64,000 nt of DNA from Ancylobacter sp. IITR112 (GTDB lineage Bacteria > Pseudomonadota > Alphaproteobacteria > Rhizobiales > Xanthobacteraceae). The position numbers were made by a program, and so were the translations under genes. The stretch lies in NCBI RefSeq assembly GCF_041415945.1, contig NZ_JBGCUS010000001.1:3658001-3722000 (forward strand). Direction: 5' to 3'. Of this stretch, positions 1 to 11,360 are shown piece after piece (the first letter of the stretch is position 1; every line of letters starts with the position of its first letter). Below the pieces are notes generated by a model. It ran no database searches. It was given only the letters and a program-made list of their open reading frames with translations, and was not told where the DNA came from.

Positions 1-1
1 G

Positions 2-712
2 GCGGCCCCGGCCGATGGCAGCGTGTTCTACGCCGCCACGCCGACCTATATCCACACCTCGCTGCTCTCCAAGCCGTCCGTCACCTATAAAGACCTGGAA
101 CCGCTGGCCAATCTGTTCGCCGACAGCGAAGTGATCTACACCCGCGCCGACGGCCCGCTCACCAGCCTCAAGGACGTGATCGACAGGGCGAAGAAGGAGC
201 GCGTCCGCTGGGGCGCCTCCAACCCGACCTCGCTGGAGAGCCAGGCGGCGGAACGGCTCAAGCGCGCCGCCGGCGTCGACGCCACCCTCGTCACCCATGA
301 GGGCGGCGGCGAAATCATGCTCAACGTGCTCAACGGCACGTTCGATATCGGCATCGGCGAAATCCAGGAGATCCGCTCGCAGCTCGACGCCGGCAAGATC
401 CGCCTGCTCGCCACCTTCAACCCGCAGCGCATCCCGGAAAAGCCTGACGTGCCGACGGTGAAGGAAAGCGGCTATGATGTGACGGTGGTGAAGTTCCGCG
501 GCCTTGCCGGCCCCAAGGGACTGCCGGACAACGTGACCAAGCTGTGGGACGAGGCGATCAAGAACGTGCTCGCCGACCCCGACTACAAGGCGCGCTACAC
601 CGAGGAGGTGCTGGTGCCGAACTACATCCCGCACGCGCAGTACCAGGCGTTCATCACCCATTTCGCCGACACGACCGAAGCGTTCCTGAAGGAAACCGGC
701 GCGGTGAAGTAA
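2..712 (+). CDS. Tripartite tricarboxylate transporter substrate-binding protein (TctC/Bug family), 5' truncated by window edge
   Basis: The frame is open from base 2 and ends at TAA 710-712, giving about 236 residues of a protein normally near 320, so the signal peptide and first lobe lie outside the window. Family features seen are the YIHTSLLSKPSVTYKDLEPL stretch, a GGGE turn after LVTHE, the LLATF strand followed by P-x-VPT, and a C-terminal helix ending in LKETGAVK. Bug proteins are periplasmic receptors for carboxylates and other small organic acids; the ligand cannot be read from this fragment. The TctA/TctB membrane genes are not downstream, so they would be upstream or this is an orphan receptor, as is common in the family. 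Confidence 0.85.
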   Translation, partial: AAPADGSVFYAATPTYIHTSLLSKPSVTYKDLEPLANLFADSEVIYTRADGPLTSLKDVIDRAKKERVRWGASNPTSLESQAAERLKRAAGVDATLVTHEGGGEIMLNVLNGTFDIGIGEIQEIRSQLDAGKIRLLATFNPQRIPEKPDVPTVKESGYDVTVVKFRGLAGPKGLPDNVTKLWDEAIKNVLADPDYKARYTEEVLVPNYIPHAQYQAFITHFADTTEAFLKETGAVK

Positions 713-1365
713 CCGCCGGCGACGAGGCCATTGACGGGCCTTTGGCAGGGCCGTCCATGGCCTCTGCGCGTATGATGGCCTCTGCGCGCATATCGGACGG
801 CGCGGATGGCCCGCGCCCTCCTCCCACCCCGGGAAGTGCTCTAACTCACTGATTACACGCAATTCCTATCGCAAAACCGCGCGGCCCCTTTGTGGGAATG
901 GCTCTCGACAAGACTCTGGCGCGGCCGGCGGCTCACATCGCCCGCGCCGCGCGGCGGGCGCGCCGGGCGCGCTTGCACGGGCGCTTGCACGAAATCGCCG
1001 ATGCGCCGCGGGTTGTCCACCAAAAGCCGTTCGGACGGCGCCGCGATGTCGGCGTCGCCAGCTTCACTGACGCGCCGGGCGATGTCAGCGAGCGGTTACG
1101 ATCGCACCATCGGCTGCCGCACGGACGGCCATCGACGGACCTCCCTCATGTATATGTCGGCCTTCTGGTTCATAAAATAAATAATTTATACATTTTGCTC
1201 GGAAGATGCGCGTCAGATATCTATCTGCCCGCGTCATTCATATGATGTTCTTTGGTCGACCTCCCCTTCAACTCAGATGTGAACGCTCCCTGTTCTCGAC
1301 ATAATCGAAAAATCCGCTGGCGCAGAGCGCCCTGAGCGCGTTGATCTCAGAACATGGAGAAGACG
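713..1365. other. Intergenic region, no supported gene
   Basis: About 650 bases separate the TctC-type gene from the XRE regulator. A 14-base unit ATGGCCTCTGCGCG occurs at 757-770 and 775-788. Several open frames here have low-complexity Arg/Ala-rich translations and no family resemblance. From about 1160 the sequence becomes AT-rich, with the palindrome TAAATAATTTA at 1178-1188. This stretch probably holds the promoter, and possibly an operator, of the regulator starting at 1366. Confidence 0.4.
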
Positions 1366-1716
1366 ATGAGTGAAGATCCCGCACGCGGCGAGCGGATTCG
1401 GCACGCGATGTTTGTCCGGAACTTCAGCAAGACACAGGCACTGGCAAGGGAATTGAACGTTTCGGTCGCGGCAATTTCGCGATGGCAGAACGGAGGACAC
1501 GTCTCATTACAGCGCGCCTGCGAATTCGCGGCCCGGCTCGATGTATCCTTGGATTGGCTCCTGCTCGATCGCGGCAGCCTCGACTGGCACAAGCATGACC
1601 GCGTCACGGCCATCGAAATGCAGTTTCTGGAATCCGTTCGCGACCAACCCGCTGCGATCCGCACCGCCCTTCGCGATCTCGTGGAGGCCCTGGCCTCGAG
1701 CCGGCAATTGCGCTGA
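1366..1716 (+). CDS. XRE-family helix-turn-helix transcriptional regulator
   Basis: The protein is 116 residues. The start at 1366 is chosen over an in-frame ATG at 1354 because GGAGAAG sits immediately before it. Residues about 5-65 form an XRE/Cro-type HTH: GERIRHAMFVRNFSKTQALA, then LNVSVAAISRWQNG as the turn and recognition helix, then LDVSLDWLLLDRG, typical of the last helix. The rest is a short helical tail with no recognisable sensor domain. It is the first gene before two paralogous unknown proteins and a nuclease/inhibitor-like pair on the same strand, so it probably controls that cassette; this is inferred from position only. Confidence 0.8.
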   Translation: MSEDPARGERIRHAMFVRNFSKTQALARELNVSVAAISRWQNGGHVSLQRACEFAARLDVSLDWLLLDRGSLDWHKHDRVTAIEMQFLESVRDQPAAIRTALRDLVEALASSRQLR

Positions 1717-1878
1717 GCGCAACAAAAGCGGCATCTTTTGAGCACTGTGAAACAACTTGAAGTTGCGTAACAATTCATTTCTACCCACGATACGTTATCA
1801 CCTGGCGTCGCTCTTACCCGTGCGCCAGTTGATCGTTGTCGCCAATGACGATGCAACGCTATTTCTGGAGCAACACTC

Positions 1879-2547
1879 ATGTCGACGCTACTGACGATCA
1901 ACGTCAAGAACCTCGAAGCCGCGACTCAGAACTTCTATTTCTTCCAGCAACCGGCCAACTACACCGGCGGCGGCGCGGTTTACAGCAACGCGCTCTACAC
2001 GCAGAGCCTCGGAAACTATCAGTCCACCGGCGGGTTGTTGACCTTCCAGGTCAACCTGCAGTACTACGCCGGCATTCAGCAGGCGAGCAATCAGGTTCCG
2101 CAGGTCGGCCAGAGCTCGGGCTTCGCGTCGGCCATCCGCGCGATTGATCTCGCGCCGGCGTCGGGCACCGCCGATGACTGCACCACCGCCTCGGTGAACC
2201 CCCTCGGCCTGTCGCCGCCCACGGTGGGACAGGGTGTGCAGGAGGGCGCCTTCCGCATCATCACCCCGATCTATCAGCCGCCCGCCGTCTACAATGTCGG
2301 CTCCGCGGTGCAGGTGAACGGCGGTGTCGTGCTGTCGAACTTCGTTGTCGCCAACCCGGCGAGCAACACCGACTGCCAGCCGATTCTCACCTACTATGTG
2401 CAGACCGGCAGCTACACGCCCGGCACGGTGATGAACTTCACGCAGTCGAGCGTCGGCGCAGCGAAGTGCGACTTCACCGGCGGCCATACCATCATCGACG
2501 TTACCCTGAAAGCTGACGGCAGCTGGTCGACGCAGATCATCCAGTAA
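1879..2547 (+). CDS. Uncharacterised beta-rich protein, copy 1 of a tandem paralogous pair
   Basis: The 222-residue protein starts at ATG 1879, with GGAG (in TTTCTGGAGC) about 12 bases before it. I do not recognise the family. It is rich in Gly, Ser, Thr, Asn, Gln, Val and Tyr with alternating hydrophobic stretches, so probably all-beta, and has no clear signal peptide or membrane segment. It shares several blocks with the next gene: VKN near the N-terminus followed by FYFFQ, a VYS segment, [15 protein letters not shown], and a C-terminal CDFTGG followed by a strand and a DGSW turn. Cysteines are near residues 98, 169 and 198. It lies 160 bases after the XRE gene and 120 before its paralogue, upstream of a NucA-like DNase. 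Function unknown. Confidence 0.75.
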
Positions 2548-2671
2548 CGCATCCCGGTTCGGCGGCCGCTCTGGATGGAGTACCCCGCACCCTCCTGCGG
2601 CGGCCGCCGCTCACCCGTCAAACTCAAGTCAAGCTGAACAGAAGCCATCCGCATGGGCTGAGGAGCAGACG

Positions 2672-3388
2672 ATGGGGGCGCAATACAAAATCATCGTCAA
2701 GAACATGACGAGCAACAACGCCAGTTTCTATGTCTTCCAGCGGCAGGCAAGCTTCACGGGATCAGGCTCGGGCGCGACCGTGTATTCATCAAGCCTTGCC
2801 ACCGGACAGCTTGCTCCCAGCGCGAGTTCGGGAGCGCAACTGGAGTTTGGCTTCGACATTCAGGTTTATGCCGGGGCCGTCTGCCGAAATCCGACGACTT
2901 CTTTAGCCGTTAAATCTGCAAACACGTTGACCAGCACCGCCTTCAACACGGCGAGCTTGTCGGCGGCTGTGCAGCCCATCAGCCTGACCACGGTGGGGGT
3001 GAATACGTCCGCCAACTACACAAACCTGTTGCTCAACCCTCTCGGGCTGTCCGCTCCCTACAACCAAGCGGGGCTTTCGGTTGGCTGCTTCGGCTTCCAG
3101 GTGCCGATCTTCGGCCCGAGCGATGTCGAAGACCTCTTTTGCGGCTGCGCGATGATCAACCAGGACAGCAGTATCGTCCTGTCAAGTTTCCTGACGCCGA
3201 AGCCCAGCAGCCAGCTCTACTGCGCACCTCTGCCTATCTTCTACGTCAAGATCGGCGCAATACCGGTCGGACAGATCATAATTTACGACACTGGCAACGC
3301 CGGGCCGTGTGATTTCACCTCCGGCGCGCGAGTTATATCGGTCGAATACAACCCGGATGGCACATTCACCGTGACGGTAGACGCCTAG
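2672..3388 (+). CDS. Uncharacterised beta-rich protein, copy 2 of a tandem paralogous pair
   Basis: The 238-residue protein starts at ATG 2672 after TGAGGAGCAGACG. It aligns along its whole length with the gene at 1879: IIVKNM, FYVFQRQASFTG, TVYSSSL, YAG, NPLGLSAP, LSSF, and CDFTSG followed by DGTF at the C-terminus. Identity is low, so the duplication is old or the copies were acquired separately. It has an additional cysteine-rich middle segment (LFCGCAM). No signal peptide, membrane helix or catalytic motif is visible. Codon use is less GC-biased than in the housekeeping genes of the window, suggesting transfer. It sits immediately before the frameshifted nuclease gene. Confidence 0.75.
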   Translation: MGAQYKIIVKNMTSNNASFYVFQRQASFTGSGSGATVYSSSLATGQLAPSASSGAQLEFGFDIQVYAGAVCRNPTTSLAVKSANTLTSTAFNTASLSAAVQPISLTTVGVNTSANYTNLLLNPLGLSAPYNQAGLSVGCFGFQVPIFGPSDVEDLFCGCAMINQDSSIVLSSFLTPKPSSQLYCAPLPIFYVKIGAIPVGQIIIYDTGNAGPCDFTSGARVISVEYNPDGTFTVTVDA

Positions 3389-3561
3389 AAGCACCCGCTT
3401 CGCACCTGAATCGCCAGAACTGCCTGAACCGCTGACCTCTGCGACGAGCTCTCGCGGAACGCGACAGTGTCGCCTGAAGCATCAGTAAACCAACCGTCCT
3501 CAACCCGGCTTGCATCAATTCTGGTGCGGGAATGGGAAGACTTTTGCCTCGGAAAACTCAG

Positions 3562-4114
3562 ATGAACAAACTGAATCTTGCACTTATATCGGCCACCCGC
3601 CGCCGCTTCACTGCCCGAACACTCGGCTCCACGCTCCTGTTCATCCTCGCAGCGGCCCAGAGCACGACAGTCGCAGCCCAGACGGTTACCTTTGATGGTG
3701 TCAATCTGCCCTGCATCACCTACAATATCGCAACCGCTCTGCAGGCCGGCCGGCCGGCCGGCGCAGTTGACGCGGACCACCAATCAGCAGGTCATTACCC
3801 AAAACCGGCAGGCCTCCTGCGGCGGTGTCTATGCCCAGACCGTCACGCAGCTCAACCAGCTGGCGGGCGGGACCGTGTTGTCGTGCGATGAATACGCCTT
3901 CGCCAGCACGGTCCAGGGCGGGGCTGGCAACCAGTCGATGATCGTTCCGTTGATTGAAAATAATAGCCAGGGAGGTATTTTGTCCGGGTTCTACACTCAA
4001 AATAACATTGGTGACGGCACCAATTTCAATGTCGCCCTCACCAATATACCGCAGGCGAACCAGCTGAACCTCGCCGTCGTGAATGGAGTGAACGTCTGTT
4101 ATGGCGGCAACTGA
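3562..4114 (+). pseudogene. Secreted NucA/NucB-type deoxyribonuclease, interrupted by a frameshift at a GGCC repeat
   Basis: Translation from ATG 3562 gives a signal peptide (positive N-region, hydrophobic GSTLLFILAAAQ, cleavage near VAA-QT) and a mature start QTVTFDGVNLPCITYNIA. That frame then enters unrelated sequence. The frame used by the rest continues after base 3763 with TRTTNQQVITQNRQASCGGV and then the family signature LSCDEYAFASTVQGG, followed by ENNSQGGILSGFYTQNN, as in NucA/NucB DNases. Removing one GGCC unit from the repeat at 3744-3762 joins both parts exactly. The stop at 4112-4114 overlaps the next gene by 14 bases. If repaired, the product is about 180 residues, exported, with DNase activity inferred from the family. 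A sequencing error cannot be excluded. Confidence 0.7.
3744..3762. repeat. GGCC tetranucleotide repeat (4.75 copies) at the nuclease frameshift
   Basis: Four complete GGCC units plus GGC lie inside the nuclease gene, between the signal peptide/N-terminus and the catalytic part. The present copy number puts the two halves in different frames; one unit fewer, or two more, restores the reading frame. Such a tetranucleotide tract is the structure through which slipped-strand mispairing switches genes, although the tract is short compared with classical phase-variable loci. Confidence 0.6.
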
Positions 4115-4502
4115 GCGACTTTATGCCGGCACCCACTACGTCAACTATGGCCAGATCGGCCTGTGGGACAAGGCGGACCTGTCGGCATATCCAGTCCCGA
4201 ACGGCCCCCTCCCGTGGTGGGGGCCGAAGGGCGTCGTGGTGCCAGCGCGCGATGATGGCGACGTCGCCGTCTGCGTCGCCGTCGAACCCACCGCCATTGA
4301 TGACGGATATGTTCTTCTTACGTCCGGCGACATGGACGTGGGCGACAGGGGCCTCACCGTTGGCAATGTGACGACCGCGAGCATGGCGGACGTCGCCGTA
4401 CCGCAGGGACGCTACGGTGTTAAATGCTACTATCGCGGGAAAGAGCCCTCAACGGCGATGGAGTTGTTCTTCGCGCTATCAGTGCGGGGCGACACGCCGT
4501 GA
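4101..4502 (+). CDS. Nin/ComJ-like small protein, candidate inhibitor of the adjacent NucA-like nuclease
   Basis: The 133-residue protein starts at ATG 4101 inside the end of the nuclease gene, so the two are translationally coupled. Length and pattern recall Bacillus Nin (ComJ, about 132 residues), the inhibitor encoded next to NucA. Comparable blocks are an N-terminal HYVNYGQIGLWDKAD (Nin: SISYHQFTVFQKD), a middle strand VVVPARDDGDVAVCVAVEPT, and a C-terminal VAVPQGRYGVKCYYRG (Nin: FDLPKGDYQLTCW). There is no signal peptide or membrane helix, so it would act in the cytosol, protecting the cell before export. The match is by eye and remote; the paired arrangement is the stronger argument. 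Confidence 0.55.
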   Translation: MAATERLYAGTHYVNYGQIGLWDKADLSAYPVPNGPLPWWGPKGVVVPARDDGDVAVCVAVEPTAIDDGYVLLTSGDMDVGDRGLTVGNVTTASMADVAVPQGRYGVKCYYRGKEPSTAMELFFALSVRGDTP

Positions 4503-4564
4503 TGGTGCTCGGCGGGCTGCTGCTGATCGTCGAGGGCCTGCGCGCGCCGATGTGAGGCGGCGCG

Positions 4565-5704
4565 TCAAGCCTTGGACGGTTGACCGAGGATATGCCGAAC
4601 AAGAGGGGCCGTCTGCGCCTCGGCATTCATCTCCTCGCGATGATAGCGTCGCGCCGCCTCCTTTGCGCTCTTGAGCCAGGCCGCATCGAGCAGGCGGTCC
4701 GCGAGCTGGTCCGCCCCCTGTTCCGGATCGGTCGGATCGAAGGCGATGGACAGCGAGTCCGGCAGGTAGCGCAGGCCCGGATTGCCGGCATAGGCGACGG
4801 CGAGCCCGGCGGCGATGTACTCGCCGACCTTGTTCGACGCGGCGGAGAGGAAATAGGCCTTCCAGAAGGCATTGGCGTTCTCCGCCTCCGCCACCGGTGC
4901 CCAGTGCAGCCCCGCATCGTAGGAGGGCAGGAGGGCGTAGAGCTCGGCTTTCGGCAGTTGCTCCAGCACCCGGTAGCCGGGATGCACAATGATCCCACGC
5001 GCGATCTCGACCATGCGCCGCGTGGCCTCGGGCTGGTTGGGGGCACCGTAGAGGTACCAGTCGAGAGTGATACCGCGGGAACAGAGACGGTCGAAGAACC
5101 GCGTCAGCCGATCGCGATCCATCGAGGTCAGAACATGGAAGGAACTGGTAAACACCACTCTCGGACTTGACGGCGGTCGGTCGACAGCCGGCGGGGGCGT
5201 GGTCAGCACCGGTGAAAGGCGGATGACGAAGCCCGGAGCCACCAACTTCGGCCAGTCCCGCCGCCGCCAGCTATGCCGCAGATCGCACACGTCGACATAG
5301 GCGTCGAGAAGTGACGCCAACCGGCCGATGAATTTCATGTGGCGATTGTCATAGTAGTCGCAGAAAAAGGCGGCGATACGGGTACGGCGGAACGGAAGCG
5401 CCATTTTATAGGCGAGTGCCGTCACTACCAGTTCGTGCTCGGCGATGATCCAGTCCGGTTGGAAGCGGGCGAGGATTGACAGCCCATCGCCATGCAAAAG
5501 GGCGAGGGCACGCAGGCCCTTTCGGTTCGCTTTGCGCGGCAGGCGCGTATGGGTGATGCCTTTTGGGAGGGGTGGCTGCAGGTCTTCCGGACGGTCTCGT
5601 GATGCGACGAGAACATCGGCCCCCTCAGCCGCCAGCCCCAGGGCGACATTGTAGAGCCCCGGAAAAGTGGCCAGCGCATACGACGAAAGAATAGCTACCC
5701 TCAC
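4565..5704 (-). CDS. Glycosyltransferase (GT-B-like fold)
   Basis: GTG at 5704 is taken as start because the family-like N-terminus VRVAILSSYALATFPGLYNVALGLAAEGADVL begins there and GGGGAAG lies upstream; the open frame extends 100 further codons without protein-like sequence. The product is 379 residues. The N-terminal half has the Rossmann pattern of a GT-B acceptor domain. The C-terminal half has VVFTSSFH, then LDWYLYGAPN and SNKVGEYIAAGLAVAYAGNPG, resembling the donor-sugar loop of family-1-type transferases (conserved Glu in KVGEY). It stands alone between the NucA-like cassette and the sigma-factor operon, so the polymer it serves is unknown. Confidence 0.7.
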   Translation of the reverse strand: MRVAILSSYALATFPGLYNVALGLAAEGADVLVASRDRPEDLQPPLPKGITHTRLPRKANRKGLRALALLHGDGLSILARFQPDWIIAEHELVVTALAYKMALPFRRTRIAAFFCDYYDNRHMKFIGRLASLLDAYVDVCDLRHSWRRRDWPKLVAPGFVIRLSPVLTTPPPAVDRPPSSPRVVFTSSFHVLTSMDRDRLTRFFDRLCSRGITLDWYLYGAPNQPEATRRMVEIARGIIVHPGYRVLEQLPKAELYALLPSYDAGLHWAPVAEAENANAFWKAYFLSAASNKVGEYIAAGLAVAYAGNPGLRYLPDSLSIAFDPTDPEQGADQLADRLLDAAWLKSAKEAARRYHREEMNAEAQTAPLVRHILGQPSKA

Positions 5705-6235
5705 CCAGCTTCCCCTGACTCCAAACGAGGGCCTATCCGTCCGACGCCTCTGGCTGCCCGCTGCGTCAGCAGCTATGCGCGCCCGACTACCCGCTGACAA
5801 GCGAGCGCGCGCAACAGATAGAAAAAATGTTGACGTTGGGTCCTTTATGTCCATCCAGAGCCACGTCGGGTCCGCGCGACGGCCCGCCGCCTGTCGGGCG
5901 CGCGGGCGCCACCTCCCATACTCCTGCAGCCCCTGCGACAGAGCCGCTGACGCGACCGGGGACTGCGGGTCCGGCGCGGCCTGGTCGTTACTGCGGCGCC
6001 ACACGGGCCGCGCAAATCTTGGCGGGCGGCGGGGATGTTTGCGTGAGGATGCCGGGCGGCGGGCGTGCGCAATGCCCGGAAAAACAACAGGAGTTCGCCA
6101 TTGCTGGAATCATTCCTGATTTGCGCGCGGCAATGCTTTAGAACTCATATAATATATTGTTATTGCTAGACTTTTTTATTGAAGCTAGAGGAGCCTCATC
6201 AACCATCCGATGACGCGACACCTCTGCATCCGGCG
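5705..6235. other. Divergent intergenic region with an AT-rich promoter candidate
   Basis: This 530-base gap lies between the minus-strand glycosyltransferase and the plus-strand sigma factor. Most of it is GC-rich with no convincing coding frame. At about 6140-6180 it becomes strongly AT-rich (CATATAATATATTG), the likely promoter of the fecI-like gene. A good AGAGGAG lies at 6187-6193 but no in-frame start codon follows at normal distance, so the sigma-factor start remains uncertain. Confidence 0.4.
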
Positions 6236-6760
6236 ATGACAACGGCAGCACCCCCCGCCAGCGACCTGATATCCTTCTACGTGCTGCAGTGGAAAACCTT
6301 GCGGCAGGCGCTCAGAAATCGCGTCGGCTCCCGCGAACTCGCCGAGGACGCGCTGCAGGAAACATGGATGCGGCTGGCGGGCATGACCGAGAAGGCGGGG
6401 ACGATCCATGACCGCCAGGCGTTCATCCTGCGCGTGGCCTCCAACATCGCCATCGACCTGGAGCGACGCGAAAGGCGGCACCGCTCGCGCTGCATCAGCG
6501 ATGACGTCGTGCTGGAAGCGATTGCCGATGCCGGCCCCTCGCCCGAGGTGGTGGCCATCGACCGCGACCGGCTGCGCCGGCTCGCCGTCGCGCTCGCCCG
6601 CCTGCCGGCCAAGCCGCGCCAGGCGCTGCTGCTGAACCGCTGCGACGGGCTTTCGCACCGGGAGATCGCCGCGCGGCTGCGCGTCTCCGACAGCATGGTG
6701 GCGCGCTATCTCGCGCAGGCGCTGCGCCATTGCCGCGACCATCTGCGCGAGGCCGCTTGA
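6236..6760 (+). CDS. FecI-type ECF RNA polymerase sigma factor
   Basis: The protein is about 174 residues from ATG 6236; an in-frame TTG at 6179 would add 19. Region 2 is visible as ELAEDALQETWMRLAG followed by the DRQAFILRVASNIAIDLERR helix. Region 4 is LARLPAKPRQALLLNRCDGL, then SHREIAARLRVSDSMVARYL, the HTH that reads the -35 element. It is followed by a FecR-like regulator and a TonB receptor with an STN signalling domain, the standard order of iron/heme surface-signalling loci, where the sigma factor is freed when the receptor is occupied. No Fur box was identified with confidence. Confidence 0.88.
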   Translation: MTTAAPPASDLISFYVLQWKTLRQALRNRVGSRELAEDALQETWMRLAGMTEKAGTIHDRQAFILRVASNIAIDLERRERRHRSRCISDDVVLEAIADAGPSPEVVAIDRDRLRRLAVALARLPAKPRQALLLNRCDGLSHREIAARLRVSDSMVARYLAQALRHCRDHLREAA

Positions 6761-6838
6761 GGCCCGTGGCCGGGTCATGCGACGGGATGCGCCCGGGAAG
6801 GCTCGTGCCTGACCTTATTCCCCTCGGCAAGGCGCGTG

Positions 6839-7801
6839 ATGGACGCAACGATGCGCAAGCGTAACGGACAGCCGGACGCCGACACCGCCCTCAGCGACGA
6901 GGCGATCGAATGGATCGTCCGGCTGCATTCGGGCCATGCCGCGCCGGCGGACCGGGCCGCCTTCGGCCGCTGGCGTTCGCTCAGCCCGGCGCATGAACGG
7001 GCGGCGCTGGAAGCCGAGTCCATCTGGCAGGGCGTCGGTGCGCCGGAGGCCGGGCTGCGCGAGACCGCACAGCGGCGGCTGCGGGTGACACGGCGCACGG
7101 TGATCGGGGGCCTCGCCGCCATCGGCGGCGGCATCGCGCTGGAACGGTCCGGGGCGATCCCGCCGCGTCTTTTCGCCGACCACTGGACCGGAACCGGCGA
7201 GCAGCGGACCGTGACCTTGCCGGACGGGTCGTCCGTGGCGCTCAATGCGGCGACCGCGCTGTCCGTCGATTACGACACCGACCAGCGCCGGCTGATCCTC
7301 TACCAGGGCCAGGCCGTGTTCAGCGTCGCCCCTGCGCCGGACCGCCCCTTCCTCGTCGAGGCGGAAGGCGGCACGACGCGCGCCCTCGGCACAGTATTCG
7401 ACGTGGATATCCGCACCCGCGCGGTGGTGGTCAGCGTGGTGGAGGGCACCGTGAGCGTGTCCTCCGGCGGTCCCGGGCAGGACAGCGTGGCGGTCGGCGC
7501 CGATCAGCGCGTGAGCTACGCGCCCGGTACGGGCGTCGGCAGCATCGAGCCCGCCGATGGCGAGGCCGCCACCGCCTGGCGCCGCGGCAAGCTGATCTTC
7601 AACCATCGCCCGCTCGGCGATGTCGTCGCCGAGATCGAGCGCCACCGCAGCGGCGTCATCGTCATCGCCGATCCGGCTCTGCGCGGCCTCGCTGTCACCG
7701 GCGTGTTCGACCTGCGCGATCCCGACGCCATTCTGGGCACCATCGAGGAGACGCTGCCGGTCCGCATCACAAGGCTGCCGCTGGTGACGATCCTGCGCTG
7801 A
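6839..7801 (+). CDS. FecR-family anti-sigma/signal transducer
   Basis: The protein is about 320 residues; GTG 6836 is an alternative start one codon earlier. The cytoplasmic N-terminus has the DUF4880-type pattern (EAIEWIVRLHSGHAAPADRA, FGRWRSLSPAHERAALE). A single membrane segment VIGGLAAIGGGIALE follows, then the periplasmic FecR domain beginning RTVTLPDGSSVALNAATALS and containing FLVEAEGGTTRALGTVFDVD and VVEGTVSV. The C-terminal LIFNHRPLGDVVAEIERHRS contacts the receptor signalling domain in the family. It sits between the fecI-like gene and the TonB receptor and should both hold and activate the sigma factor. Confidence 0.9.
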   Translation: MDATMRKRNGQPDADTALSDEAIEWIVRLHSGHAAPADRAAFGRWRSLSPAHERAALEAESIWQGVGAPEAGLRETAQRRLRVTRRTVIGGLAAIGGGIALERSGAIPPRLFADHWTGTGEQRTVTLPDGSSVALNAATALSVDYDTDQRRLILYQGQAVFSVAPAPDRPFLVEAEGGTTRALGTVFDVDIRTRAVVVSVVEGTVSVSSGGPGQDSVAVGADQRVSYAPGTGVGSIEPADGEAATAWRRGKLIFNHRPLGDVVAEIERHRSGVIVIADPALRGLAVTGVFDLRDPDAILGTIEETLPVRITRLPLVTILR

Positions 7802-7961
7802 CGCTCCCGCCGGCGCGCGGCCGGTGCGCTGAAAAAAAGCGCGCGGTGCCGGTGCAAGATTCCTCGCCTCGCTTCGTCCTTGCTCATGAACGGCATGCGG
7901 CTCCGGCGCCTTCGGCACCCCGGCCATGCCCGGATCTCAGCGAGGCAATGGGGCGGATGGC

Positions 7962-10900
7962 ATGAAGGTCAGGATATCGAGGCGAAACCGGAACGGCGCT
8001 CTCTCTCTGCGCCTCGCGCTGCTGACATCGGTGGCCCTTTGCGCCGTCCTCGGTGCGCAGGCGCCGGCGCGGGCGCAGGACAGGACGACGCAAAGCGTCA
8101 GCCTGAACATCCGCGCCCAGGATCTCGGTGCGGCGCTGACCACCTTCGCCGACCGCGCCGGGTTGCGCCTGCTGTTTCCCTCGCATCTCGTCGCCGGCCG
8201 CACCAGCCCGGCGCTGACCGGCAGCTATACGCGCGCGGCGGCGCTCGACCGGCTGCTCGCCGGTACCGGCCTCGTCTGGTCGTTCACCAGTGCCGATACG
8301 GTGACCATCGCCGGCGCCACCCTGTCGGCTGCCGAGGGCGGCGCGGACGGCGCCATCGCGCTCGACGCCATCGACGTGTCCGGCGCTCGCGCCGCCGCCG
8401 ACCTGCCCTTCGAGACGCCGGGCTCCACCAACTACATCTCTTCGGAGGAAATCGAGCGCTTTCCGCCGCAGACCGCCGGCGCCCTGTTCCAGGGCACGCC
8501 CGGCGTCATTTCCGGCGGCGGCAATAATGGCGCCTCGATCGACCCCAATATTCGCGGCCTGCAGGGGCAGAACCGCGTCGCCACCACCATTGACGGCTCG
8601 CAGCAATCGACATCGAGCTATCGCGGCTATTCCGGCATCGACAGCCGCGCCTATGTCGACCCGGACATGATTTCCGGCATCACCATCACCAAGGGACCCG
8701 ACGGCGCGGTGGCCGGCGCCATTGGCGGCACCATCGCCATGGAGACGCTCAATGTCGAGGACATTCTCAAGGCCGGCGAGCGCTGGGGGGTGCGGGTGCG
8801 CGGCGGGCTCGCCACCAATTCGGTCGCTCCGGTGGTGGGGGAGACAGCGGCGGTGTTCGGCGGCGGCGACGGCGCGGAACTCACCAATGGCAGCTTCGCC
8901 CTCGCCGTGCGCGAGGACAATGTCGACGTGATCGGCGCGGTGGTGCGGCGCAAGACCGGCAATTACTTCGCCGGCACGCAGGGCTCCCTCACCACGACCG
9001 ATTATCTCGGCGAGGAGGTGCCGCTGTCGAATTACGGCCATGGCCAGCTTGTCTACAACACCTCGGAGGATGTGACCTCGGCGCTGCTGAAAGCCACGTT
9101 CCGCCCCACCGACGAGCAGCAATTGCAGATCGGCTATCTCTATTACGGCAACGAGTTCGGCGAGGTGTCGCCCTCTGTCATCACGGCGGGCAACGGGGTT
9201 ACGGACCAGCTGCCGCTCTCCTCGGTCGACATCAACCAGGCCACGCTGCGCTATCACTACACCCCGACCAGTACCAATCTCGTCGATTTCAAGATCGACG
9301 CCTACGTCTCGAACACGGAGGAGACGAATGTCTTCATGGTGCTCAACGAGGTGGAGCAACTCGACCAGCAGTCGCAGAATGTCGGCGTGAACGCGAGCAA
9401 CACCTCGCGCTTCTCGGTGGGAGGCATGCCGGTCGCGGTGAGCTATGGCGGCTCCTATGTCTATGAGAATGCCCGGCCGACGCAGTTCTACGACTTCTCG
9501 GACGTGGCGCTCTGGGCCATTCCGGCCAATGGCGAGCGGGAGGTCGGCGCGCTCTTTGCGCGGGTGAAGTGGGAGCCCGCCACCTGGCTCGAACTTTCGG
9601 CCGGGCTGGAATATCTGACCTACAACACCTCCTTCAACGGCATCACCTCCTACAACGTTAAGGGCGAGCTGTTCTCCGGCTATTCCGGCGACGGACTGAG
9701 CCCCAGCGCCAGCGTGATGGTGACTCCCCTTGAAGGCTGGCAGATCTACGGCCAGTACCAGAGCGGCATCCGCCCGCCGAGCGTGCGCGAAACCAGCCAG
9801 ACCCGCAGCGACCAGGTCTTCAACCCGGACCTTCAGGCGGAAGAGGCGAGCAACTGGGAGTTCGGCACCAACCTGCTACGGGACGACGTTCTTCTGCCGG
9901 GCGACAAGCTACGGCTGAAGCTCGCCTATTTCGACAACACCACCGAAAACTATATCGGGCGCCAGTTCGACGGCAGTATGGGGCTGTTCAACTACGATTA
10001 TGTCCGCTTCAAGGGTGTCGAATTCTCCGGACGCTACGATGCCGGTGCCGTCTTCACCGAGTTCGGTCTCAACTACTACACCGACTTCGAGTCCTGCCAG
10101 CAGAACGGCGTCTGCACCGATTACACCCTTTCCGCCGACTACCTCACCAACCAGATCCCGCCGCGCTTCACCGCCTCGCTGACGGCCGGCGCCCGCTTCT
10201 TCGACGAGCGGCTGACGCTGGGTGGACGTGTCACCTATATGAGCGAGCGGCTGGTGCCGGTGGCGGAGGATGGCGAGTACTTCACCTGGGTTACGAAGGT
10301 GTGGGAGCCCTACACCGTGGTCGACGCCTTCGCCCAGTGGAAGCTGAACAGCCACCTGACTCTCGATATCAGCGTGCAGAACCTGCTCGACGCCTATTAT
10401 GTCGACGCGCTGAACAACACCGACATGCCGGCCCCCGGCCGCACCTTCATGGCCACGCTCACCGGCACCTTCGGCAGCGACGAGCCGATCGCTCCGCTGC
10501 CCGTCGGCCTGCGCGGCAATGGCGCGCGCTGGACCGGACTCTATGCCGGCGGCTCGTTCGGCTATGGCTTCGGCTCGGTCAGCGGCACCACCACGCTGGC
10601 GGATGGCAGCTACGCCCCCCGCGCGTTCAATGAGTCCGCCAATGAAGACTTCAGCGGCGGTCTGTGGGGCGGGCAGGTCGGCTATAACTACCAGTTCGCC
10701 AACAACGTCGTGTTCGGCATTGAGGCCGATGTCAGCTATCTCGACATCGGCAGTTCCAGCGTGCTCGGCGCGACCGAAGGGCCTAACCTGATCAACAACC
10801 GCATGCCGGAAGCGCAGACTGACTATTCCTTCGACTGGATGAGTACGGTACGCGCCAAATTCGGCTACGCCTTGAACGACCAGTGGTTGGTCTACGGTAC

Positions 10901-11360
10901 GGCGGGCGTGGCCTTCCTTCATGAGACCGAGGACCGCGCCCAGTACATCTCGGCCTCTGCCACCACCTCCAATCCGGGAGGCAGCCGGACCAATCTGAAC
11001 TTCACGGAATCCGCGAGCCAGACCCGGACCGGCTTCGTGGCCGGCGGCGGCGCGGAATACGCCATTAGTGACCGCTGGTCGGTCAAGGCCGAGTATTCCT
11101 TCGCCGGCTTCGATCCCAAGAGCTTCATGTTCTGGAAGGCGCGCTCGGGCGTGACCAAAACCTATTCGAAGAAGGTGGGCACGGCACTGGTGGTTCGCAA
11201 CGAGACGCTCTGCGGCACTCTTGGAGGCATTTGGTGCGACCTGGTCTCGCGGGCGGTCTATGAGAACGTGATCGGCACCTCCACCATCAAGGACGGCCGC
11301 GACGCCTCGAATTCGGCGTCGTTCCAGGCCGTCAAGATCGGCCTCAACTACCGGTTCTGA
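7962..11360 (+). CDS. TonB-dependent receptor with STN signalling domain and a C-terminal Omp25-like second barrel
   Basis: The protein is 1132 residues from ATG 7962. A signal peptide ends near ARAQD. The STN domain spans about 45-105 (SLNIRAQDLGAALTTFADRA, LLAGTGLVWSF), marking a receptor that signals through FecR. The plug follows (NYISSEEIERF, IRGLQGQNRVATTIDG, ISGITITKGP), then the 22-strand barrel ending near NLLDAYYVDALNN and RTFMATLTGTFG; the style is heme/hemoglobin-receptor-like. From about residue 857 an independent segment of some 275 residues starts WTGLYAGGSFGYGFG and continues GGQVGYNYQF, VFGIEADVSYLD, VYGTAGVAF, GGGAEYAISDRWSVKAEYSF and ends FQAVKIGLNYRF, the pattern of Omp25/OmpA-like 8-strand porins. 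This fusion is unusual. Confidence 0.88.
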   Translation: MKVRISRRNRNGALSLRLALLTSVALCAVLGAQAPARAQDRTTQSVSLNIRAQDLGAALTTFADRAGLRLLFPSHLVAGRTSPALTGSYTRAAALDRLLAGTGLVWSFTSADTVTIAGATLSAAEGGADGAIALDAIDVSGARAAADLPFETPGSTNYISSEEIERFPPQTAGALFQGTPGVISGGGNNGASIDPNIRGLQGQNRVATTIDGSQQSTSSYRGYSGIDSRAYVDPDMISGITITKGPDGAVAGAIGGTIAMETLNVEDILKAGERWGVRVRGGLATNSVAPVVGETAAVFGGGDGAELTNGSFALAVREDNVDVIGAVVRRKTGNYFAGTQGSLTTTDYLGEEVPLSNYGHGQLVYNTSEDVTSALLKATFRPTDEQQLQIGYLYYGNEFGEVSPSVITAGNGVTDQLPLSSVDINQATLRYHYTPTSTNLVDFKIDAYVSNTEETNVFMVLNEVEQLDQQSQNVGVNASNTSRFSVGGMPVAVSYGGSYVYENARPTQFYDFSDVALWAIPANGEREVGALFARVKWEPATWLELSAGLEYLTYNTSFNGITSYNVKGELFSGYSGDGLSPSASVMVTPLEGWQIYGQYQSGIRPPSVRETSQTRSDQVFNPDLQAEEASNWEFGTNLLRDDVLLPGDKLRLKLAYFDNTTENYIGRQFDGSMGLFNYDYVRFKGVEFSGRYDAGAVFTEFGLNYYTDFESCQQNGVCTDYTLSADYLTNQIPPRFTASLTAGARFFDERLTLGGRVTYMSERLVPVAEDGEYFTWVTKVWEPYTVVDAFAQWKLNSHLTLDISVQNLLDAYYVDALNNTDMPAPGRTFMATLTGTFGSDEPIAPLPVGLRGNGARWTGLYAGGSFGYGFGSVSGTTTLADGSYAPRAFNESANEDFSGGLWGGQVGYNYQFANNVVFGIEADVSYLDIGSSSVLGATEGPNLINNRMPEAQTDYSFDWMSTVRAKFGYALNDQWLVYGTAGVAFLHETEDRAQYISASATTSNPGGSRTNLNFTESASQTRTGFVAGGGAEYAISDRWSVKAEYSFAGFDPKSFMFWKARSGVTKTYSKKVGTALVVRNETLCGTLGGIWCDLVSRAVYENVIGTSTIKDGRDASNSASFQAVKIGLNYRF

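Follow-up and report, generated by a model that had tools for sequence, protein, structure and literature searches.

The window analyzed here, a stretch of 64,000 nucleotides from Ancylobacter sp. IITR112 (contig NZ_JBGCUS010000001.1, positions 3,658,001 to 3,722,000), contains at 1354-4502 five plus-strand genes, which encode an XRE regulator, two paralogous proteins (orf1 and orf2), a NucA/NucB nuclease and a protein of 133 residues with a predicted ComJ fold. We consider it likely that this operon makes a NucA/NucB-type DNase exported by the Sec pathway and a cytosolic ComJ-fold protein that guards the DNA of the producer. An earlier note, made from the sequence alone, had pointed to such a nuclease and to a neighbor resembling Nin (ComJ), the NucA inhibitor of Bacillus; its observation was confirmed by our analysis, and its interpretation was partly supported. 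A RhiA-related operon that carries a nuclease together with a recognizable inhibitor fold offers a testable handle on the role of such operons, and the operon combining nuclease and ComJ fold is itself small and rarely found.

As sequenced, the nuclease gene is split over two reading frames. Its second-frame part (3752-4114) contains the DNase domain, and a match of 3752-4111 to PF14040 (hmmscan, E 4.6e-19, 69.2 bits, curated cut-off 23.8) places the NucA/NucB motifs where the earlier note had seen them; a PF14040 search of the whole genome returned this place only. In an alignment with NucB from Bacillus licheniformis (5omt) the active-site residues D, E and N (D93, E94 and N117 of BlNucB) are retained, which are essential residues of NucB according to the accessible part of PMC5758888. 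The first frame opens with a signal-peptide-like segment (3562-3678) consisting of a basic stretch, a hydrophobic stretch and VAA before Q, and hydrophobic start segments were also present in all four related nucleases (P0007 to P0010). By the same simple rule of hydrophobicity plus an AxA motif, signal-peptide-like starts were seen in RhiC and in proteins of 134, 131 and 166 residues from related operons, and were not seen in a 91-residue type, the ComJ-like protein, orf1, orf2 or RhiA. The nuclease, which has only this Sec-type start and no delivery domain, would be exported by Sec and may attack DNA of foreign or environmental origin, either in the periplasm or outside the cell.

The predicted fold of the small protein encoded at 4101-4502 resembles ComJ (4mqd). 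In addition, a profile-profile comparison with four ComJ proteins (hhalign) yielded prob 56 and E 1.1e-4 for one comparison, the best of 20 shuffled controls being 0.073, a relation that is weaker than the fold evidence and modest on its own. The start of the partner gene sits inside the last codons of the nuclease gene, with a 14-base overlap (4101-4114) in the window, in Rhizobium sp. CG5 and in R. straminoryzae, so that the small protein adjoins a NucA/NucB gene in all three loci examined; its presence in 3 of 3 close relatives read agrees with the earlier note, which had tied its claim to such a neighbor being usual. Since the partner appears to be cytosolic and its start overlaps the nuclease gene, the arrangement fits a guard against enzyme still inside the cell: the small protein, the presumed inhibitor of the nuclease, may bind nuclease that is not yet exported and spare the DNA of the producer, following the logic of barnase and barstar. 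Such a pair may serve in competition, or in the clearance of DNA around roots or in biofilms.

Relatives of the pair are few and patchily distributed. A search of about 5.8 billion proteins, which reaches only relatives sharing exact words, gave five matches each for the partner and for the nuclease, both counts including the query itself, and a scan of one genome per species (84,980 species) gave two loci, in Rhizobium sp. CG5 (L004) and R. straminoryzae (L005). CG5 carries all five genes in an identical order (66% to the window for the XRE protein, 78% for orf1, 62% for orf2), between flanks that differ from those of the window and whose open reading frames (ORFs) were read as genes for ABC transporters and for cytochrome bc1. 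The partner gene of R. straminoryzae runs off the contig end; upstream of the pair, this species has a regulator of the AraC type, a protein of the Evf family (PF18270, 77.9 bits) and an unknown ORF of 184 residues, the last two (L005 1878-2750) occupying the place of the RhiA-like genes of the window. Among 397 genomes from the window's order, the partner family turned up only in that of the window itself, and PF14040 was present in 3 of 297 genomes drawn from the family of CG5, CG5 counted. The nucleases of the two genomes besides CG5 have PF11033 proteins behind them (three, 48.4 to 49.9 bits): at L012 1108-2966 a NucA/NucB domain precedes two PF11033 ComJ proteins and at L013 990-1472 (minus strand) one, each possibly an effector-immunity cassette. 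Altogether, a ComJ-type neighbor was present at five of the seven NucA/NucB loci whose neighbors were read. PF11033 was absent from 398 genomes drawn from the phylum, although two genomes of the CG5 family have members, neither the small protein in plasmid records nor B. subtilis ComJ in plasmid and phage records (tblastn) found a match, and no relative was seen among 26 pattern stretches in viral contigs.

The two upstream genes, orf1 (1879-2547, 222 residues) and orf2 (2672-3388, 238 residues), are paralogues with 29% identity, and neither product has a visible signal peptide. The earlier note had left them as unknown paralogues; by profile-profile comparison, however, we regard it as settled that they and RhiA belong to one superfamily. 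The orf1/orf2 alignment matched seven RhiA proteins (that of R. johnstonii 3841 and six relatives) with prob 97.8 and E 8.6e-13 over 204 columns, the lowest value among 20 column-shuffled alignments being 0.11. Simpler comparisons gave weaker signals, with 6.9e-4 as the best BLAST value of RhiA against orf1/orf2 in a set of 15 proteins, 13.1 bits (E 0.0027 among 996 frames) for RhiA in an hmmsearch with the orf1/orf2 profile, and prob 17 (E 0.0015) in hhalign against RhiA alone. The structure model of orf1 is confident and all-beta, with no close solved structure in the match lists. Its 372 relatives (itself included) are alphaproteobacterial wherever a genus is named among the best 120, its plasmid matches also include Serratia and Azotobacter, and its homologue in R. 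johnstonii 3841 is 71% identical. Plasmid records matched numbered 100 for orf1 and 101 for orf2, each query also matching the other paralogue. RhiA-like genes were detected in 6 of 397 genomes of the window's order (E<=0.001, own genome counted, two of the six by short weak matches) and in 5 of 337 genomes of CG5's family, CG5 counted. A second RhiA-like gene lies elsewhere in the Ancylobacter genome (L014 4896-5561, minus strand), with no orf2 or nuclease matches beside it. According to its title, listed among the references of PMC2275737, the first report of RhiA in 1984 described a rhizosphere protein, and the accessible part of PMC2275737 still describes it in 2008 as cytoplasmic, highly expressed and without a known function. 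Partial texts further place the rhi operon under the control of RhiR and N-acyl-homoserine lactone (AHL; PMC5977203) and make RhiB a tail-collar-type protein (PMC13133039; COG name in PMC6969944). In PMC2900269 the name rhi denotes rhizoxin genes, which are unrelated and were set aside.

The gene that follows the RhiA-like pair varies. We compared 22 non-random loci, comprising the window, L004, L005, the second orf1 locus of the same genome, 12 plasmid records and 6 further genomes, of which 17, all hand-picked, have orf1 and orf2 together; among the remaining five, orf1 alone is present in L014, L020 and L050, orf2 alone in L047 and neither in L005. An XRE homologue precedes the pair in 10 of the 17, the window counted. 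The nuclease and the ComJ-like protein follow orf1 and orf2 in two of them (the window and CG5), an exported-looking type of 134 residues in six (some truncated or in pieces, two near-identical), an exported-looking type of 131 residues in two, a 91-residue type without signal in three and RhiC in one; in two, an exported-looking type of 166 residues lies between orf1 and orf2, and in one nothing was recognized in the third slot. BLAST among representatives of the third slot and the nuclease gave only a match of RhiC to RhiC and otherwise short ones at chance level. The RhiC case is A. vitis CP146241.1, with the order XRE, orf1, orf2 and a 'protein rhiC' that shares 61% identity with the RhiC of R. 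johnstonii 3841; in the window (1-8000) no RhiC match was found at 1e-4. This 'protein rhiC' had prompted the idea that orf1 and orf2 are RhiA and RhiB proper, which was rejected, as strain 3841 has its annotated RhiA, tail fiber protein and RhiC elsewhere on the plasmid. Broken or truncated genes were observed in other RhiA-like loci (L018 5778-6177; L042 6081-6305; L021 4163-4826): in R. johnstonii 3841 the gene in the third slot is in two pieces, in R. leguminosarum 23B it is truncated, and orf1 of Rhizobium sp. RCAM05350 is split over two frames. The nuclease and its partner would accordingly fill a slot that elsewhere holds RhiC or other small, mostly exported-looking proteins. One could speculate, at rather long odds, that RhiA-like operons (rhiABC among them) act as a conserved carrier in which one slot takes interchangeable small exported proteins for competition in the root or biofilm zone, that the nuclease with its ComJ-fold partner is the cargo with guessable biochemistry, and that the GGCC run described below may switch the nuclease on and off by slippage while the inhibitor stays on.

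Several observations speak against a functional exported nuclease with its own inhibitor. The earlier note had treated 3562-4114 as one joined product, a claim of which the catalytic part stood and the single open frame did not: the start and the signal-peptide-like segment (residues 1 to about 65) are in a first frame and the remainder in a second, the change, which the note did not mention, falling within a tandem GGCC run at 3744-3762 on the plus strand. This run is the only tetranucleotide run of at least 14 bases in the window, and runs of at least 18 were absent from 20 mononucleotide shuffles. The nuclease copy is thus broken as sequenced, while the partner frame is intact, and the break would leave this genome with the partner gene unharmed. 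Unbroken copies are found in relatives (P0007, P0008 and P0009 with 182 residues each, P0010 with 161), and the two pieces match CG5 at 62% over 52 residues and 74% over 121, the aligned parts containing no additional stop. Since both pieces are still conserved, the break appears to be recent, reversible or an assembly error, caused either by slippage at the GGCC run in the cell or by a sequencing error. The database entry from this genome, P0006, has 139 residues, the length of the second-frame ORF starting at 3695, which would lack the signal peptide. Moreover, the position of the active-site His (H53 of BlNucB) is Asn in all four intact relatives, and the first frame of the window carries the same CITYNIATA segment with Asn at this place. 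As the accessible part of PMC5758888 reports the H47A variant of BsNucB to be inactive, i.e. the His to be needed, nuclease activity is not assured. The same position is Asn in one Streptomyces and one Mesorhizobium NucA/NucB protein and His in L012 and L013; because some PF14040 proteins lack this His, the exchange bears on activity more than on membership of the family. GspD, the secretin of the type II secretion system, was not found in the genome by a search that detected 6 of 14 controls, two of them above the cut-off, so that a location in the periplasm, or leakage, is just as probable as genuine secretion. When solved structures were searched by sequence, neither the nuclease piece nor its alignment led to a NucB.

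Regarding the partner, the ComJ alignment by hhalign, at prob 56, spans only 43 C-terminal columns, and a solved-structure sequence search with the small protein or its alignment reached no ComJ. Of the proposed Nin/ComJ-like relationship, the predicted fold and, more weakly, the profile-profile relation were borne out, whereas the PF11033 hit on which the earlier note had made it depend was missing both in hmmscan (up to E 1) and in the genome search (up to E 10), and the protein is therefore not filed as a member of PF11033. A ComJ fold that extends beyond detection by PF11033 would mean that ComJ-type inhibitors may be under-counted. Finally, among 46 plasmid records with nuclease matches, all below 60% identity, neighbors were read in two, and neither NucA/NucB gene has a ComJ-type neighbor (a SUKH protein in Mesorhizobium, a 220-residue protein without Pfam match in Streptomyces).

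The alternatives considered carry probabilities that are not mutually exclusive. It is possible, although we think it somewhat unlikely, that in this genome the nuclease has become a pseudogene and its partner an orphan being lost, neither with a present function, as the broken frame and the occurrence of PF14040 in only 1 of 151 relatives' genomes searched (the own genome) may suggest; the conservation of both pieces, the lack of further stops and the intact partner frame argue against such decay. An interbacterial effector-immunity pair, in which competitors receive the DNase and both kin and self are protected by the ComJ-fold protein, overlaps with the exported and guarded DNase that we favor and is a still more doubtful proposition. 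It is in line with the ComJ-family neighbors of NucA/NucB domains in two genomes of CG5's family, with the treatment of ComJ as immunity protein in the accessible part of Zhang (2012, PMC3482391), and with Mesorhizobium ciceri pMESCI01 (L016 3506-4852), where a PAAR-like NucA/NucB protein is followed by the SUKH (SMI1/KNR4) protein inside a type VI cluster. However, the window nuclease has a Sec-type start in place of a delivery domain, no secretion genes were noticed in the module and no type II secretin was found in the genome. That the small protein is no nuclease inhibitor and instead uses its ComJ fold, as would CgnJ in the synthesis of crocagin, for a different ligand appears improbable, given that the 14-base overlap and the co-occurrence with the nuclease persist in 3 of 3 loci, even with the different upstream genes of R. 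straminoryzae. Least probable is a competence module as in Bacillus, in which the nuclease trims DNA during uptake: nuclease family, partner fold and gene order are as in NucA-Nin, but the pair is rare and patchy and located in a RhiA-like operon, and inspection of the ORFs of L004, L005 and window 1-9000 by eye, without a dedicated search, showed no com genes. The latter result agrees with the earlier note, which had seen no com genes around the pair, while its suggestion of DNA uptake found no support. Likewise, phage defence received no backing from PADLOC, where orf1, orf2, the nuclease piece and the ComJ-like protein had no match up to E 0.1 and the XRE protein gave only weak matches (best 18.5 bits).

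Similar to the NucA-Nin (ComI-ComJ) pair of Bacillus subtilis, ComI being the same nuclease as NucA, the window combines a PF14040 nuclease with an adjacent ComJ-fold protein. It differs in the partner, which is too distant for PF11033, in the RhiA-like genes upstream, in the absence of noticed com genes and in the Asn that replaces the active-site His in the relatives of its nuclease. R. leguminosarum rhiABC likewise has RhiA-superfamily proteins followed by a small exported-looking protein; RhiB of strain 3841, however, is annotated as a tail fiber protein, whereas the second gene of the window encodes another RhiA-like protein and its third slot holds the nuclease and partner. No AHL synthase or LuxR genes were noticed by eye beside the module, among ORFs overlapping 1-9000 (no dedicated search). 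CgnJ (6i86) is different, by title a crocagin (natural-product) biosynthesis protein. The earlier note had set the pair apart as a module outside Firmicutes, where such pairs are not new: PF14040 stands beside PF11033 in two CG5-family genomes, and the accessible part of Zhang (2012, PMC3482391) already describes Imm-ComJ with Tox-ComI in alpha-, beta- and gammaproteobacteria, considers ComJ homologues as immunity to ComI-type nuclease toxins and suggests that the Bacillus pair may derive from a toxin-immunity pair. These two-gene cassettes resemble the window in joining a competence-type nuclease with a ComJ-type protein, whereas the window nuclease stands alone, lacks a delivery domain and has a signal-peptide-like start of its own. 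What is new, to the extent of our searches, is a nuclease of the stand-alone, exported form whose ComJ-fold partner lies beyond PF11033, together with the location of this pair in a RhiA-like operon and a third slot that varies; among the papers listed by literature searches for RhiA or rhiABC with nuclease, RhiC or secretion, and for ComJ with NucA, none joined the two topics.

No match above cut-off was obtained for orf1, orf2 or the small protein in Pfam or NCBIfam, and PHROGs gave no convincing one for them either; in PHROGs and NCBIfam the nuclease had no match and the small protein nothing with E <0.2. Scans for promoters and terminators stayed close to the shuffle means (2 vs 1.1 and 5 vs 2.8, respectively). 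The upstream XRE regulator claimed by the earlier note was recovered as a helix-turn-helix protein of the XRE or phage CI type (1354-1716, plus strand; PF07022 34.7 bits, PF01381 30.6 bits). Downstream of the module, ORFs at 6179-6760 and 6836-7801 appeared by eye to be sigma factor-like and FecR-like, and they precede a TonB-dependent receptor frame of 1144 residues (7926-11360) in which the outer-membrane beta-barrel domain PF00593 is followed by a second one, PF13505.
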